Positions 9,205-15,733 of a stretch of DNA of 59,929 bases are shown one piece after another (position 1 is the first letter of the stretch; every line of letters begins with the position of its first letter). The notes under the pieces are model-generated. The model was not told the DNA's origin, did no database searches, and saw only the letters and a program-made list of their open reading frames with translations. The position numbers and the translations under genes were made by a program. Source of the DNA: Bacillota bacterium (GTDB lineage Bacteria > Bacillota > Sulfobacillia > JAJZYS01 > JAJZLH01); the NCBI GenBank assembly GCA_021827745.1, contig JAKAUI010000044.1:1-59929 (forward strand), written 5' to 3'.

Positions 9205-10998
9205 ATGGCACAGACGTCCGTCCCGTCGCGGCAGGAGCTTCAACCCGACCAGTGCTGGGATCTAAGTGCCTTGTTCGCCCGTGAGGAGGACTGGCACCGC
9301 CACGGCGAGGAGATCGTGCGCCAGGCCCAAGCGATGGCTCGCTTCTCCGGCCATCTCGGCGAGGGGGCGGCCGCGGTGGCCGCTGCGCTGACCGCCGAAG
9401 ACGCGCTCAGCCTCCTGATCGAGCGCTACTTGGCCTACGCCTCTTTTCGCCACGATCAGGACACCCAGGACAGCGCCGGAAGCAGCCTGGAGCAAAAGGC
9501 CCGCCAGGTGGTGGCTAAGGCCCAGGAGGCGGTCTCCTTCATCCGGCCCGAGCTGGTGGCGATGGCTCCGGGCCTGCTTGAGAGCTGGATCAAAGACGAT
9601 GCCCAGCTCGCCCCCTGGCGCCATGCCCTGGAAGAGATCGTCCGCCGCCGTGCGCACTGGCTGAGCCCAGACGTGGAGGCGGCCATCTCCGCCCTCGGTC
9701 CGGCCCTGGACGGCGCCAGCCAGGCGGCCTCTCAGCTCTCAAACGCCGACTTTGACTTCGGGACGGTGGAGGACGGTAGCGGGCAGAGCCATCCGCTCAG
9801 CCACGGCCGCTACGGGGTCTATCTGACCGGTCAAGACCGGGTGCTGCGCCAGAACGCCTACCGCAGGACGCTGCAGACCTACGCAGACCACCGCCACACC
9901 TTCGCCGCCACCCTGGCCCAGACGGCGGAGCTCGACGCTGCGATGGCCAGGCTGCGCGGCTACCCGAGTGCCCTGGCCATGCGCCTGGACGAGCGGAGCC
10001 TGCCTGAGGCGGTCTACCCGACGCTTGTTTCGGCCATCGATCAGAGCCTGCCCACCCTGCACCGCTATCTGAACTGGCGCAAGAGGCGGCTCGGTCTTCT
10101 CGAGCTGCACTTCTACGATCTGCTGGTGCCGATTGTTGAAGACTCTGCGATGTTCACCTGGGAGAGGGCCCAGGCGCTGGTCAAGGATGCCGTGGCGCCG
10201 CTCGGCGATCGCTATCGGAAGGCGCTTTCCGACTATCTGGCCAAGCGGGCGATCGACCATCTGGAAAATCGGGGCAAGCGATCGGGCGCCTACAGCTGGG
10301 ACGTCTACGACGTACACCCCTACATCCTGATGACCTTCACCGAAGAGCGGCAGAGCGTGTTCACCCTGATCCACGAACTCGGCCATGCCCTGCACTCCTG
10401 CTTTAGCTCGGAGCACCAGAGCGTGCGCAACGCCCAGTACCCGATCTTCCTGGCCGAAGTGGCCTCGACGGCCAATGAGCACCTGCTGCTCGACCACATG
10501 CTCCAGCACGCCGACTCAGACCAAGAACGGCTGGTCCTGCTGGACAGCTTGGCCCGGGACTATCTGGGAACGGTCTACCGCCAGGCCTTCTTCGCCGAGT
10601 TCGAGCAGGCGTTTCATGCCGCCCACGAAGCCGGCGAGCCGCTGACCGCCGAGAGCATCTCCGCCCTCTACCAAGCGGCGATCGAACATGTCTACGGCGC
10701 TGCGGTGACGGTCGATGAAGAGACCAAGATGGAGTGGGCGCGCATCCCGCACTTTTACTTCAGCTTCTATGTCTTCCAGTATGCCACCGGCTTTCTGGCC
10801 GCCTCCGCCCTGATGGAGGGTGTGCGCCAGGACCCGGCCGCCGCCGAGCGCTATGTGCAGTTTTTGTCCCTGGGCGGGTCTTTGGACCCCCTGCCAGCGC
10901 TGCAGCAGGCCGGAGTCGACATGGCGGACGTCGCCTCCTTGGAGCGGGGACTGGCCGCCTTCGACCGGCTGGTCGGCGAGTTGGAGACGCTGGGGTAG
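9205..10998 (+). CDS. pepF: Oligoendopeptidase F (M3B metallopeptidase)
   Basis: Cytoplasmic zinc peptidase that degrades peptides of roughly 7-17 residues. The zinc motif HELGH is at residues 390-394 with the third ligand Glu near 418 (LAEVASTANEHLL), and the substrate-binding HFYFSFYVFQYATG stretch is near 515. At 597 aa the size is normal for PepF. ATG 9205 is preceded by AGAGGGGAG. The gene stands between xerC and the arg operon and likely ends the topA transcript; no clear terminator is seen directly after it. Confidence 0.94.
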   Translation: MAQTSVPSRQELQPDQCWDLSALFAREEDWHRHGEEIVRQAQAMARFSGHLGEGAAAVAAALTAEDALSLLIERYLAYASFRHDQDTQDSAGSSLEQKARQVVAKAQEAVSFIRPELVAMAPGLLESWIKDDAQLAPWRHALEEIVRRRAHWLSPDVEAAISALGPALDGASQAASQLSNADFDFGTVEDGSGQSHPLSHGRYGVYLTGQDRVLRQNAYRRTLQTYADHRHTFAATLAQTAELDAAMARLRGYPSALAMRLDERSLPEAVYPTLVSAIDQSLPTLHRYLNWRKRRLGLLELHFYDLLVPIVEDSAMFTWERAQALVKDAVAPLGDRYRKALSDYLAKRAIDHLENRGKRSGAYSWDVYDVHPYILMTFTEERQSVFTLIHELGHALHSCFSSEHQSVRNAQYPIFLAEVASTANEHLLLDHMLQHADSDQERLVLLDSLARDYLGTVYRQAFFAEFEQAFHAAHEAGEPLTAESISALYQAAIEHVYGAAVTVDEETKMEWARIPHFYFSFYVFQYATGFLAASALMEGVRQDPAAAERYVQFLSLGGSLDPLPALQQAGVDMADVASLERGLAAFDRLVGELETLG

Positions 10999-11008
10999 CG
11001 GCTGGGGC

Positions 11009-11037
11009 TTGACGGATCCATAGTGGGCTGGTATGGT
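11009..11037 (+). promoter_or_regulatory. Promoter of the argFGH operon
   Basis: TTGACG (11009-11014), a 17-base spacer, then TATGGT (11032-11037): five of six and four of six matches to the sigma-70/sigma-A consensus at ideal spacing. Predicted transcription start is about 11043-11045, only a few bases before the leader peptide ATG at 11048, so that peptide may be translated from a nearly leaderless 5' end. No ArgR-like box was recognised. Confidence 0.75.
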
Positions 11038-11047
11038 CCCCGATACG

Positions 11048-11137
11048 ATGATCGGACTAGGCGTGGCACCGACCCTTCGTCTGACGGCCGCCGCAACCAG
11101 GAGGGCCAGGAGGAAGCGCGCCTGGGCCATCCTCTGA
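11048..11137 (+). CDS. Arginine-rich leader peptide of the arg operon
   Basis: Twenty-nine codons from ATG 11048 to TGA 11135-11137. Six residues are arginine; codons 18-24 read Arg-Arg-Ala-Arg-Arg-Lys-Arg (AGG AGG GCC AGG AGG AAG CGC, 11099-11119). The density of Arg codons directly ahead of an arginine biosynthesis operon and its terminator is the signature of a ribosome-stalling attenuator peptide, as in trp or his leaders. Alternative in-frame start GTG 11063 would keep the Arg block. No strong ribosome site precedes either start, consistent with near-leaderless initiation. The role is inferred from the sequence layout. Confidence 0.75.
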   Translation: MIGLGVAPTLRLTAAATRRARRKRAWAIL

Positions 11138-11179
11138 CGTAGCATCGGCTGAATTCGTTCAGCGATCCAGAGGCCCGGG
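11104..11179 (+). promoter_or_regulatory. Pause and antiterminator hairpins of the arg attenuator
   Basis: Two alternative pairings share the segment starting at 11121. Pause/protector hairpin: GGCCAGG (11104-11110) with CCTGGGCC (11121-11128, one bulged G). Antiterminator: CCTGGG (11121-11126) with CCCGGG (11174-11179), plus CCTCTG (11131-11136) with CAGAGG (11168-11173), closing over a hairpin GCTGAA-TTCG-TTCAGC (11148-11163) with a UUCG tetraloop. The first segment lies under the Arg codons 19-22 of the leader peptide, so a ribosome stalled there would free 11121-11136 to form the antiterminator, which destroys the terminator at 11170-11197. Confidence 0.7.
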
Positions 11180-11205
11180 GCGCTCGCCCCGGGCCTCTTT
11201 TGTTT
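11170..11205 (+). terminator. Rho-independent attenuator terminator before argF
   Basis: GAGGCCCGGGGC (11170-11181), loop GCTC, GCCCCGGGCCTC (11186-11197): a perfect 12-bp GC-rich stem followed by TTTTGTTT (11198-11205). It lies between the promoter and argF, so transcription of the operon must pass it. The 5' arm overlaps the 3' strand of the antiterminator, making the two folds exclusive. Confidence 0.92.
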
Positions 11206-11247
11206 GCTGCCCGCACCGGCTGGAGATCGAGATGAGGAGGAGATGCC

Positions 11248-12165
11248 ATGTTGTCCCAAAAGACCCATCGCCAGCTTCTGGCACTGGACGAGCTTGACGC
11301 CGCGGAGATTCACGGCCTGCTGGCCACTGCTGTCGCCCTGAAGGGGCAGAAGCTGAAGCTGGCCGAGGGCCAGATGCTGGGGCTGCTCTTCACCAAGCCC
11401 TCGACCCGCACCCGGGTTTCCTTCGAGGTGGCGATGGCGCAGCTGGGCGGCCAGTCCCTGTACCTGAGCGCCGAAGCGACCCATCTCTCGCGGGGCGAGA
11501 GTCTGGCCCACACCGCCCGAGTGCTCGGCCGCTACCTGGATGTGATCGCCATGCGCACCCACGCCCACGAAGACGTCGAGCTGATGGCCGAAGAGAGCGG
11601 CATCCCGGTCGTGAACGCCCTGACCGAGCGCTTTCACCCGATGCAGGTGCTGGCCGACCTGCTGACCGTGCAGACGGCCAAGGGCGCCCTGGAAGACCTG
11701 ACCTACGCCTATGTCGGCGACGGCAACAACATGGCCAACACCTGGGTCCTGGCCCAGGCTGGCCTAGGTCTCGACCTCAGGATTGCCACCCCGCCCGGCT
11801 TTGCGCCTGACCCTGCGGTCCTCGACCGGCCGGTGGTGAAGAGCCACCCGCCCATGTTGTGCGAAGACCCGCTTGCGGCTGTTTCAGGCGCCGACGTGGT
11901 GATCACCGACACCTGGGTCAGCATGGGCATGGAAGAGGAGGCGACGGTGCGCCGCACCCTGTTCGCTCCCTATCAGGTGAACGCTGCGCTGATGTCCCAC
12001 GCCGCCAAGGGTGCCATCTTCCTGCACTGCCTGCCCGCCCATCTGGGAGAAGAGGTCACCGAGGAGGTCTTGGAGGGGCCGCAGAGCGCTGTGTGGGACG
12101 AGGCCGAAAACCGGCTCCATGTGCAAAAGGCCTGGCTTGCGACTGTACTGGGAGGTGTCTCTTAG
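11248..12165 (+). CDS. argF: Ornithine carbamoyltransferase
   Basis: Makes citrulline from ornithine and carbamoyl phosphate, the sixth step of arginine synthesis. Carbamoyl-phosphate motif STRTR (52-56), HPMQ (130-133, usually HPCQ or HPTQ), GDGNNMANTW (157-166), the ornithine loop DTWVSMG (221-227) and HCLPAH (260-265). The SMG loop distinguishes it from aspartate carbamoyltransferase. Length 305 aa. ATG 11248 follows AGGAGGAG. First gene of argF-argG-argH, under the leader attenuator; argG starts on the base after its stop codon. The earlier pathway genes (argCJBD) are not in the window. Confidence 0.96.
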   Translation: MLSQKTHRQLLALDELDAAEIHGLLATAVALKGQKLKLAEGQMLGLLFTKPSTRTRVSFEVAMAQLGGQSLYLSAEATHLSRGESLAHTARVLGRYLDVIAMRTHAHEDVELMAEESGIPVVNALTERFHPMQVLADLLTVQTAKGALEDLTYAYVGDGNNMANTWVLAQAGLGLDLRIATPPGFAPDPAVLDRPVVKSHPPMLCEDPLAAVSGADVVITDTWVSMGMEEEATVRRTLFAPYQVNAALMSHAAKGAIFLHCLPAHLGEEVTEEVLEGPQSAVWDEAENRLHVQKAWLATVLGGVS

Positions 12166-13368
12166 GTGTCAGAGATGAAGAAGATGGTGGTCCTGGCCTA
12201 CTCCGGTGGCCTCGATACCTCGGTGGCGATCCGCTGGCTGAAGGACACGTACGGCTATCAGGTGGTGGCGCTCTCGCTGGACCTGGGCGAGACGCCGGAC
12301 GCCAAGGCGCTGGAGAAGAAGGCCCTGATCAGCGGCGCCGAGGCCGTGGTGATCAAAGACGCCAAGGACGAGTTCGTCTCGGAGTTCATCAAGCCGGCCT
12401 TATGGGCCAATGCGCTCTACCAGAAGGAGTACCCGCTGGCCACGGCCCTGGCCCGGCCGCTGATCGCCAAGCACCTGGTCGCCACCGCCCGGGAGTTCGG
12501 TGCTGAGGCCGTCGCCCACGGCTGCACCGGAAAGGGCAACGATCAGGTCCGCTTCGATGTGGCTGTGGCGTCGCTGGCGCCTGACCTCACGGTGGTGGCG
12601 CCGGTCCGGGAGTGGGCCTGGACCCGAGCTCAGGAGATCGCCTACGCCGATGTGCACGGCATCCCGGTGCCGGCCACCTTGGAGAACCCGTACAGCGTCG
12701 ACGCCAACCTGTGGGGACGCTCGGTCGAGGGCGGAGTCCTGGAGGATCCTTGGGTGGAGCCGCCTGCCGCCTGCTACGCCTGGACGGCCGGCCCTGGCGC
12801 CTGGCCAGTTGGTGGCGAAGAGATCACGATCGGCTTTGAAGAGGGGGTGCCCGTCCAGTTGAACGGCGAGCCGATGGCGCTTAAGACGCTGATCGTGGCA
12901 GTCGGGGAGACGGCAGGACGCCACGGCATCGGCCGCATCGATCTGATCGAGGACCGCCTGGTCGGCATCAAGAGCCGCGAGGTATACGAGGCGCCGGCCG
13001 CCGTCACCCTGATCGCCGCCCACCGGGCGGCCGAGGCGCTGACCCTGCCTAAGGACCTGCTCCAGCACAAGGCCGGGATCGAAGAGGTGCTCTCTCAAAG
13101 CGTCTACAACGGGCTCTGGTTCAGCCCGCTGACCCAATCCCTGCTCGCCTACCTCAAGGAAACCCAGCAGGCGGTGACGGCCGAGGTCCGGCTGCGCCTT
13201 CAGGCCGGAAAGGCGACCGTGGTCGGGCGCCGCTCGCCCTGTTCGCTCTACCGATCCGATCTCGCCACCTACGGCGAAGGCGACACCTTTGACGCCACGG
13301 CCGCCGTCGGCTTCATCAAGATCTGGGGGCTGCCGCTGAAGGCGGTGGCAAGCGCTCATGGCCGATAA
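12166..13368 (+). CDS. argG: Argininosuccinate synthase
   Basis: Joins citrulline and aspartate with ATP to form argininosuccinate. The N-terminal PP-loop AYSGGLDTSVAI is at about residues 11-22, and HGCTGKGNDQVRF near 120 is a second family signature. At 400 aa it is the usual bacterial type. GTG 12166 is preferred over ATG 12175 because GGGAGGTG (12151-12158) is correctly spaced from it. It abuts argF and overlaps argH by 11 bp, so the three genes should be co-translated. Confidence 0.96.
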   Translation: MSEMKKMVVLAYSGGLDTSVAIRWLKDTYGYQVVALSLDLGETPDAKALEKKALISGAEAVVIKDAKDEFVSEFIKPALWANALYQKEYPLATALARPLIAKHLVATAREFGAEAVAHGCTGKGNDQVRFDVAVASLAPDLTVVAPVREWAWTRAQEIAYADVHGIPVPATLENPYSVDANLWGRSVEGGVLEDPWVEPPAACYAWTAGPGAWPVGGEEITIGFEEGVPVQLNGEPMALKTLIVAVGETAGRHGIGRIDLIEDRLVGIKSREVYEAPAAVTLIAAHRAAEALTLPKDLLQHKAGIEEVLSQSVYNGLWFSPLTQSLLAYLKETQQAVTAEVRLRLQAGKATVVGRRSPCSLYRSDLATYGEGDTFDATAAVGFIKIWGLPLKAVASAHGR

Positions 13369-14749
13369 GCTGTGGTCAGGCCGCCTGCCGGCCCAGTTGG
13401 ACCCACGGTTCGAGGCGTTCTCCTGCTCCCTGCCTGCAGACCTCCACCTCTTTGAGCACGACCTGATCGGGACGATGGCCCATGTGCGCGCCCTGGCCGG
13501 CGCCAGCCTGCTTCAGCCCAAAGAGGCCGCCGCTCTGCTCGCCGTGTTGGAAGAGCTGCGTGCCGCCGGCGCCGAATCCTTCCCCTGGTCCGAAGCGGAC
13601 GAAGACCTGCACGCCGCGATCGAGCGGGTGGTGGTGGAGCGGGTGGGGGAGGCTGGGCTGCGCCTGCACACCGGCCGCAGCCGAAACGACCAGGTGGCCA
13701 CGGCCAGCCACCTCTATGCCCACCAGGCGGCCATCTCGCTGGCACAGGGGGCGCGAGACTTCGCCCAGGCCGTGTTGGACAAGGCCAAGGCGGCCGGCGA
13801 TCAGCTGATCGTGGGCATGACCCACCTGCAACCGGCCCAGCCGGTGCTGCTGGCGCATCATCTCTTGGCCTACTCCTGGATGGCGACCCGGGACGCCGAC
13901 CGCTTCCTGGCGGCGGCTGCCCATGCCAAGCAGGCCTCGCCGCTGGGGGCGGGTGCCCTGGCCGGGACCGGCTTTGCGCTGGACAGCATCGAGTGCGCCA
14001 CAGAGATGGGCTTTGACGCCCCCTACCCCAACTCGATCGACGCCGTCTCCGACCGCGACTACCTGGCCGAGCTGGCCTTCGCCTGCGCCCTGGCCACCTC
14101 CCACTTGTCCCGTCTGGCTGAGGAGCTGATCCTCTGGAGCCACCCGGCCTTCGGGCAGGTCCGGCTGGCCGATCCGTTCGTGACCGGGTCGTCGATGATG
14201 CCGCAAAAGCGCAACCCGGACAGCGCCGAGCTGGTGCGGGCCAAGAGCGGGACTGTGATCGGGGACCTGACCACGGTCCTGACCGTGCTGAAGGCGTTGC
14301 CGCTCGCCTATATGCGCGATCTGCAGGAGGACAAGCCTGCGCTCTACCGGGCGGTCTCAGCCACAGAAGATTCCTTGCGCATCATGGCCGGCGTGGTCGC
14401 AACCGCCACCTTTTTGCCGGTGGAGCCGGTCTACGGAGACCTCACGCTCGCCACCGAGCTGGCCGACCACCTGGTGCGGGGCGGCGTGCCGTTTCGCAAG
14501 GCCCATGCCATCGTCGGCCAGCTCAGCGCCACGGCCGAGGAGCTGGGCGGGAACTTCGGCCGCCTGACCCGAGCCGAGTTCCGCCAGGCCAGCCCCTTGT
14601 TTTCAGACCAGCTGGACCGCCTGCTCGACCCCCGCCAGGCGATCCGTGCCCATAGCGCCATCGGCGGAACGGCGCCTGAACGGGTTCAGGAGCAGATGGA
14701 CCAGCTGTCTTCCGTCCTCCAGGGGCTCGACCGGGCCCTCGCCAGTTGA
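13358..14749 (+). CDS. argH: Argininosuccinate lyase
   Basis: Splits argininosuccinate into arginine and fumarate, the last step of the pathway. The fumarase/lyase superfamily signature GSSMMPQKRNPDS is at about 277-289 and the catalytic His in MTHLQPAQP is near 156. Length 463 aa. ATG 13358 lies 11 bp inside argG. Its stop overlaps the -35 box of the rpsB promoter; a dedicated terminator is not obvious. Confidence 0.96.
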   Translation: MADKLWSGRLPAQLDPRFEAFSCSLPADLHLFEHDLIGTMAHVRALAGASLLQPKEAAALLAVLEELRAAGAESFPWSEADEDLHAAIERVVVERVGEAGLRLHTGRSRNDQVATASHLYAHQAAISLAQGARDFAQAVLDKAKAAGDQLIVGMTHLQPAQPVLLAHHLLAYSWMATRDADRFLAAAAHAKQASPLGAGALAGTGFALDSIECATEMGFDAPYPNSIDAVSDRDYLAELAFACALATSHLSRLAEELILWSHPAFGQVRLADPFVTGSSMMPQKRNPDSAELVRAKSGTVIGDLTTVLTVLKALPLAYMRDLQEDKPALYRAVSATEDSLRIMAGVVATATFLPVEPVYGDLTLATELADHLVRGGVPFRKAHAIVGQLSATAEELGGNFGRLTRAEFRQASPLFSDQLDRLLDPRQAIRAHSAIGGTAPERVQEQMDQLSSVLQGLDRALAS

Positions 14750-14775
14750 GGGCCCGAGCTGTCCTGTGGTAGACT
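14746..14775 (+). promoter_or_regulatory. Extended -10 promoter of rpsB-tsf
   Basis: TTGAGG (14746-14751), 18 bases, then TAGACT (14770-14775) preceded by TGG at 14767-14769, an extended -10. The -35 box overlaps the argH stop codon. The predicted start is about 14782, leaving a 100-nt leader before rpsB. Confidence 0.6.
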
Positions 14776-14804
14776 CACCCAGAACCAATTCGCACGCTGA
14801 CCAA

Positions 14805-14840
14805 GGCGCCCGGACGGTGGCCGCAAGGCTTCCGGGAGCC
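14805..14840 (+). promoter_or_regulatory. Structured leader of rpsB, candidate S2 autoregulatory element
   Basis: A compound hairpin: GGC (14805-14807) with GCC (14838-14840); CCCGGA (14809-14814) with TCCGGG (14831-14836); an asymmetric CGGT bulge; then GGCC (14819-14822) with GGCT (14827-14830), closed by a GCAA GNRA tetraloop. No T-run follows, so it is not a terminator. Such a motif ahead of rpsB suggests r-protein feedback control. That is inference; the fold was drawn by hand. Confidence 0.5.
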
Positions 14841-14881
14841 GATGCGGTCGGCGGAGGTCAAACCGAGGAGGGATTCGGCGC

Positions 14882-15733
14882 GTGAGTTACATTTCCATGA
14901 AGCAGCTCCTGGAAGCGGGCGTGCACTTCGGACACCAGACCAGACGGTGGAATCCGAAGATGCGCCCGTACATTTTTTCGGAGCGAAACGGCATCTACAT
15001 CATCGATCTGCAGCAGACGGTGCGGATGGCCGAAGATGCGTACACCTGCGTGCGCGACACCGCCATGGGCGGTGGCCGGGTGCTGTTCGTCGGCACCAAG
15101 AAGCAGGCCCAGGAGTCGATCAGAGAAGAGGCCATCCGCTGCGGCGAGTTCTACGTCAACCAGCGCTGGCTGGGCGGCACCCTGACCAACTTCCAAACCA
15201 TCCGCAAGCGGATCCAGCGCCTGATCGAGTTGGAGGAGATGGAGTCGACCGGCCAGCTGTCCCGGCTCACCAAGCGCGAGGTCAGCCGGCTGCTCGGCGA
15301 GCAGGAGCGGCTGGAGAAGTTTCTGGGCGGCATCAAGGGCATGAGCCGGCTGCCCCAGCTCCTGTTCGTGGTGGACCCCAGAAAAGAACACATCGCCGTC
15401 ACGGAGGCCCGCACCTTGGGCATCCCGATCGTGGCCATCGTCGACACCAACTGCGATCCGGACGAGATCGACTTCATCATCCCCGGAAACGACGACGCCA
15501 TCCGCTCGGTGCGGTTGATCGCCTCCAAGATGGCCCAGGCGATCTTGGAGGGCAAACAGGGCGTGCAGGTGAGCGACGAGGATCAAGAGGGCCAGGTGTG
15601 GACAGCAGAGACGGCAGAGCTGGAGGGCGAGGACGAGGACGCCGAGCCCGAGGACGAGAGCGACGTCGAGCCGGACAAGCCAGAGACGTCCGAGATCACG
15701 GCCGAACTCTTCGGTGTCGAGGAGGAGGCCTAG
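14882..15733 (+). CDS. rpsB: 30S ribosomal protein S2
   Basis: Small-subunit r-protein S2. [20 protein letters not shown] at the N-terminus, [10 protein letters not shown] near 65 and [11 protein letters not shown] near 97 are diagnostic. The protein (283 aa) is longer than usual because of an acidic tail of about 45 residues rich in Glu and Asp. GTG 14882 is supported by GAGGAGGG at 14865-14872; ATG 14897 would remove conserved residues. First gene of the rpsB-tsf-pyrH-frr operon. Confidence 0.96.

Follow-up and report, generated by a model that had tools for sequence, protein, structure and literature searches.

The 59,929-nucleotide stretch of DNA analysed here (the window, contig C53 of genome G000, which comprises 1.62 Mb in 64 contigs) carries the genes argF, argG and argH behind a conspicuous leader, and this raises the question of how the synthesis of arginine is controlled in this organism. 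Arginine synthesis is the textbook case of control by ArgR. The sequence-only reading of the locus, which named ArgR as the usual regulator, had nevertheless proposed a ribosome-mediated attenuator with an arginine leader peptide. An ArgR gene is indeed present in the genome, yet no ArgR-box-like sequence (TGCAT/TGAATA-like) was seen by eye at positions 11000-11050. By contrast, such sequences were seen at the argF promoters of the sister family f4 and of G003, a member of the same order.

The leader spans positions 11009-11205, between pepF, which ends at 10998, and the argF-argG-argH operon (Table 1). Each of the three genes exceeds its curated NCBIfam cut-off, and the downstream operon thus serves the synthesis of the amino acid that the leader would sense. 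Beyond argH lie an rpsB-like ORF and ORFs resembling tsf and pyrH, names that come from reading the translations. No argC above the TIGR01850 cut-off was found in G000, in the two further members of the genus (G001 and G002) or in the f4 genomes, although argF is present. This suggests that the organisms gain ornithine or citrulline by a different pathway or from their surroundings, and that arginine is probably built from one of these. The sequence is 67% GC, and two antisense ORFs, 10516-11637(-) of 373 aa and 10851-11249(-) of 132 aa, span the leader; these long frames are probably by-products of the base composition.

Table 1. Features of the argFGH leader and operon, in window coordinates.
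Feature	Position	Strand	Basis or remark
Sigma-70-type promoter, TTGACG-17-TATGGT, with TG upstream of the -10	11009..11037	+	conserved in L002, L003
Likely transcription start, A, 8 nt past the -10	11045	+	inferred from -10 spacing; L002 spacing equal
Leader peptide ORF, 29 codons and TGA, near-leaderless ATG, MIGLGVAPTLRLTAAATRRARRKRAWAIL	11048..11137	+	counterparts in L002, L003
Control codons AGG AGG GCC AGG AGG	11099..11113	+	AGG AGG GCC AGG invariant in genus
Strand A, 5' arm of pause hairpin A:B	11099..11112	+	folding
Strand B, 3' arm of pause hairpin and 5' arm of antiterminator B:C	11116..11136	+	folding, alignment
UUCG hairpin inside antiterminator, GCUGAA-UUCG-UUCAGC	11148..11163	+	folding, alignment
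Strand C, 3' arm of antiterminator and 5' arm of terminator	11167..11183	+	folding, alignment
Intrinsic terminator C:D, 13-bp stem (11169-11181/11186-11198), GCUC loop, TTTTGTTT	11169..11205	+	
argF, ornithine carbamoyltransferase	11248..12165	+	TIGR00658 above cut-off; GAGGAG precedes
argG, argininosuccinate synthase	12166..13368	+	TIGR00032 above cut-off
argH, argininosuccinate lyase	13358..14749	+	TIGR00838 above cut-off

The promoter was found as it had been proposed, and it is the only sigma-70-like match in positions 10500-15000, where 0.3 would be expected. The other two genus members also have this leader ahead of argFGH, including the promoter, the Arg codon block and the A, B, C and D strands, at an ArgF identity of 75-82%; their loci (L002 in G001 and L003 in G002) keep TTGAC[C/G], the 17-nt spacer and a TA-rich -10. 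The terminator is strong and lies about 170 nt past pepF, as would be expected if it were a plain pepF terminator and argF were transcribed from elsewhere. However, the sole promoter-like site precedes this terminator, and in G001, at the edge of the contig, the promoter is directly preceded by what reads as the tail of a transposase-like ORF and not by pepF. The arrangement in G001 indicates that the leader belongs with argF. On the basis of promoter placement and this neighbourhood, the assignment of the terminator to pepF was rejected as most improbable.

The 29-codon ORF near the 5' end of the RNA was likewise present, and begins about 3 nt after the inferred start at A11045. Its counterpart in G001 has 34 codons (peptide MMSIAVGSSLCAMAASTRRARVERARAILRLSIS) and likewise has its ATG about 3 nt behind the inferred 5' end. 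The counterpart in G002 has 27 codons (peptide MAQRRNGSATRRARLARAWVPLPHRIC, with TTG read as M); there the near-leaderless ATG is absent, and the TTG lies 24 nt further on, behind AGGAGG with a 7-nt gap. Near-leaderless initiation, previously put forward as an unusual feature of this leader, is thus found in two of the three species but is not fixed. The comparison suggests that the mode of initiation of the leader peptide changed while the control region stayed in place, and this points to translation of the Arg block as the essential feature. In all three species a second reading frame is open as well, and an open frame alone counts for little in a sequence of this GC content. That second frame has no shared start codon after the inferred transcription start, and the Arg-codon frame is the only one with such a start codon in all three. 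In the alignment of the ORF between the window and G001, third-position changes are not in excess ahead of the Arg block, so that the evidence for coding consists of the Arg block, the frame, the starts and the stop.

Across the genome, the pattern of a promoter followed by an ATG gave 11 matches. One of these precedes a long frame, an ABC-transporter-like ORF of 238 aa, and most of the remaining matches resemble T-box or ordinary 5' UTRs; near-leaderless starts look uncommon in this genome. Two further observations were made in the same genome. At L159 (G000:C49:75150-75189), a promoter is followed by TAGCACTC...GAGTGCTAA, a CIRCE-like inverted repeat of the HrcA operator type, before a groES-like ORF. 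At L155 and L156 (G000:C32 and C38), two near-identical rpsU-like genes (ribosomal protein S21) with near-identical promoters occur in the one 1.6-Mb genome.

The leader ORF contains one CGT codon, four AGG codons (11099-11101, 11102-11104, 11108-11110 and 11111-11113) and one CGC codon (11117-11119), AGG thus making up four of its six Arg codons. The block AGG AGG GCC AGG AGG AAG CGC is present as described, and all three genus members share, unchanged and in frame, the series of AGG AGG GCC AGG, two further codons and CGC. In the genes of the window AGG is rare, at 3.9 per 1000 codons and 13 of 256 Arg codons in eight genes. In dinucleotide shuffles, a complete ORF with as many AGG codons inside an eight-codon stretch, and with its start no more than 40 nt from the RNA 5' end, turned up at a frequency of 5e-5 (window), 0.002 (G001) and 0.004 (G002). 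The genes for tRNA-Arg(ACG) and tRNA-Arg(CCU) lie side by side at L198 (G000:C12), positions 1501-1661, with tRNA-Arg(CCG) at a separate locus. The scan, which covered not quite all tRNA genes of the draft genome, gave no tRNA-Arg(UCU), and on that count the AGA codon has no obvious reader in it.

In the his attenuator of Salmonella, AGG causes more ribosome stalling than any other sense codon, and AGG AGG is a perfect Shine-Dalgarno sequence that could slow ribosomes at any arginine level (PMC4046918). This bears on a reading in which the in-frame AGGAGG stalls ribosomes in any medium, through its rarity and anti-Shine-Dalgarno pairing, and so sets a fixed read-through or senses the general speed of translation rather than arginine. 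The rarity of AGG codons here is in keeping with such tuning, as is the behaviour of the Salmonella his leader, in which paired AGG codons relieve attenuation even in cells not starved of arginine, an effect that overexpression of the tRNA corrects only partly (PMC4046918). Constitutive tuning of this kind is nonetheless considered unlikely, because the controlled operon is one for arginine synthesis and the codons are arginine codons, and because the argF leaders of f4 use a different rare Arg pair, CGA CGA, that is not Shine-Dalgarno-like.

The attenuator reading also requires alternative RNA structures. All three helices that had been proposed were found where they had been placed, each extending somewhat further than had been described. 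The pause hairpin A:B pairs 11099-11112 with 11119-11133 at about -20 kcal/mol, and the antiterminator B:C pairs 11116-11136 with 11167-11183, encloses the UUCG hairpin and has a folding energy of -33 to -36 kcal/mol in the window. When each species was folded alone, the common antiterminator reached -33 to -37 kcal/mol and the terminator had 13-15 pairs; the pause, antiterminator and terminator are predicted to be mutually exclusive in each of the three species, with the exact pairing of the pause hairpin varying. The folding of the whole leader gave z = -2.6.

Within the alignment, the terminator was paired in 100% of cells and the main antiterminator helix in 92%. A test for covariation in all three helices had been asked for; pairs changed on both sides were found in the terminator (3) and in the antiterminator (2), and with three sequences only, the observed covariation score was reached by 37 of 500 shuffles for the terminator and 125 of 500 for the antiterminator. 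At alignment column 84, in strand C, the three sequences have G/G/A, the partner in strand D has C/C/T and the partner in strand B has T/C/T, so that both alternative pairs are kept. With three sequences, this dual-partner column and the pair-preserving changes are no more than suggestive. The relatives retain the Arg block and the alternative helices, with several pair-preserving changes, and the proposal of an attenuator gains support from them.

The geometry of ribosome stalling was modelled with 13 nt masked from the A site, and the expected B:C pairs were counted before strand D is made. In all three species the model gave about 15 pairs for an A site at either of the first two AGG codons, 12 for the third AGG, 5-7 for CGC and 0 for the stop codon. 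The model indicates that only the AGG codons would give productive stalls, and that a stall at CGC or arrival at the stop codon would not free the antiterminator. Of codons 18-24, which had been named as the site of stalling, codons 18, 19 and 21 (perhaps 22), all of them AGG, are thus retained, while a ribosome on the CGC of codon 24 would already mask strand B. The stop codons occur at two different places in the three species, always at or past the 3' end of strand B and 17-32 nt before strand C. With this spacing a ribosome at the stop codon would mask B and leave C free, the geometry on which ribosome-mediated attenuation depends.

After strand D has been transcribed, the terminator is more stable in nearly all modelled states, which implies that the order of folding decides the outcome, as in classic attenuators. 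In the model without a ribosome, at equilibrium before D is made, B:C is favoured over A:B, and termination of untranslated RNA would therefore depend on A:B forming first.

Taken together, the sequence, its conservation, the predicted exclusive helices, the stop geometry and the placement of the codons make it very likely that argFGH is controlled by a classic-type, ribosome-mediated attenuator of transcription responding to charged tRNA-Arg, mainly to the isoacceptor that reads AGG. The RNA would begin at about 11045, and a ribosome would start the leader peptide at once. When charged tRNA-Arg(CCU) is short, the ribosome would halt when codon 18, 19 or 21 occupies its A site, and would cover strand A, so that B pairs with C and the polymerase continues into argFGH. 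When arginine is plentiful, the ribosome would reach the stop codon and cover B, C would pair with D, and transcription would end at about 11205. If the leader is not translated, the A:B hairpin would form first and termination would be expected as well.

The same alternative helices might instead be controlled by a ligand or a protein (ArgR, a riboswitch or another RNA-binding protein), with the ORF being incidental. The ArgR gene, the second open frame and the ability of B:C to form ribosome-free at equilibrium are compatible with such control. We regard it as very unlikely, however, because the Arg-codon frame alone has a start after the inferred transcription start in all three species, the start switched from ATG to a Shine-Dalgarno sequence with TTG around an unmoved control region, the stop codons are positioned for ribosome masking, and no match to any Rfam riboswitch or leader family, T-box included, was found at gathering score anywhere in the window. 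Nine T-box matches at E <= 0.001 occur in the genome, none of them at argF, and a T-box identity of the leader was therefore rejected.

This design was found in three sequences. A covariance model built from the three leaders and run on 154 genomes of the class gave 115-135 bits for these three loci and no more than 36 bits for any other match. Four of the weaker matches (best 36 bits) were inspected and discarded as copies of the leader; they resemble long GC terminators or hairpins without an Arg leader. The leader is absent from two other members of the order, G003, where the ArgR-box-like promoter lies right at argF, and G004, where argF follows argH.

A second type of leader was found in f4. 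All nine argF leaders examined in this family, at L004:1291-1469(+), L005:2415-2593(-), L006:2409-2582(-) and L007-L012, combine an ArgR-box-like promoter, a Shine-Dalgarno sequence, an ORF of 18-20 aa that ends in CGA CGA TAA/TAG, and a strong hairpin. Like AGG, CGA belongs to the codons on which ribosomes tended to stall in the his-leader assay of Salmonella (PMC4046918). The leader alignment was too divergent for a useful consensus fold, and the hairpins were folded one by one. The first paired base of the terminator-like hairpin lies -5 to 0 nt from the stop codon, and in the models ribosome masking lowers the folding energy by 5 to 28 kcal/mol. With a ribosome stalled on CGA CGA, the base of the hairpin would be covered, and the f4 leader seems to attenuate by occluding the hairpin directly, with no alternative helix involved. 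The Shine-Dalgarno region of the f4 ORF can also pair with the middle of the ORF.

No obvious sequence is shared between the argF leaders of the genus and those of f4. It is somewhat more probable than not that, within the order, translated arginine leader peptides control arginine synthesis through two independent designs: a four-strand switch with AGG codons in the genus, with no evident ArgR box at argF, and terminator occlusion through CGA-CGA-stop in f4, with the ArgR box kept. The presence in f4 of an Arg-ended leader ORF and a terminator at argF was also counted in favour of the attenuator reading for the genus.

The design in the genus is similar to that of the trpL/hisL-type attenuators of enterobacteria (trp, his, leu, ilv, thr, phe) in its end-product codons in a leader peptide, its four-strand pause/antiterminator/terminator arrangement and its stop codon between strands 2 and 3. 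It differs in the use of arginine and AGG, in the GC-rich genome and in a peptide that, in two of the three species, begins about 3 nt past the inferred 5' end. T-box leaders likewise sense tRNA charging and control terminators, but they bind tRNA directly and are untranslated. In fungi, the arginine attenuator peptide (the arg-2/CPA1 uORF) is also a short ORF before an arginine-synthesis gene; it stalls ribosomes at high arginine and blocks translation, with no terminator logic.

Among Gram-positive bacteria, the leader Rli60 of the Listeria monocytogenes ilv-leu operon is also a ribosome-mediated attenuator, demonstrated with mutants and reporters and acting beside the repressor CodY, and it differs from the present leader in its branched-chain codons and in sequence and structure (PMC5864092). 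A leaderless leader peptide in a transcription attenuator is known from rnTrpL/peTrpL of Sinorhizobium meliloti, an alphaproteobacterium, where the sensed amino acid is tryptophan and the RNA starts exactly at the AUG (PMC10117765). In GC-rich Gram-positives, leader peptides and attenuators have been predicted by comparative genomics in actinobacteria; the abstract of that survey names trp, trpS, leuS, ilvB, cys and leuA leaders and no arginine leader peptide (PMC1262725).

A search of the openly licensed full-text literature found no bacterial arginine-synthesis operon under ribosome-mediated attenuation. To our knowledge, no classic attenuator has been described for arginine synthesis. The logic of the classic attenuator is well known, and it is the arginine specificity that looks new.

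If the attenuator reading is true, arginine would join the amino acids that are sensed by classic attenuators. The codons chosen would be those of rare isoacceptors, AGG here and CGA in f4, which match the stall-prone codons of the Salmonella his leader (PMC4046918). The genus would also provide a natural case in which the initiation of a leader peptide switches between near-leaderless and Shine-Dalgarno modes while the control region stays fixed. The two designs, if both are true, would mean that an ArgR-type operon can move to, or share control with, the sensing of specific Arg isoacceptors by the ribosome.
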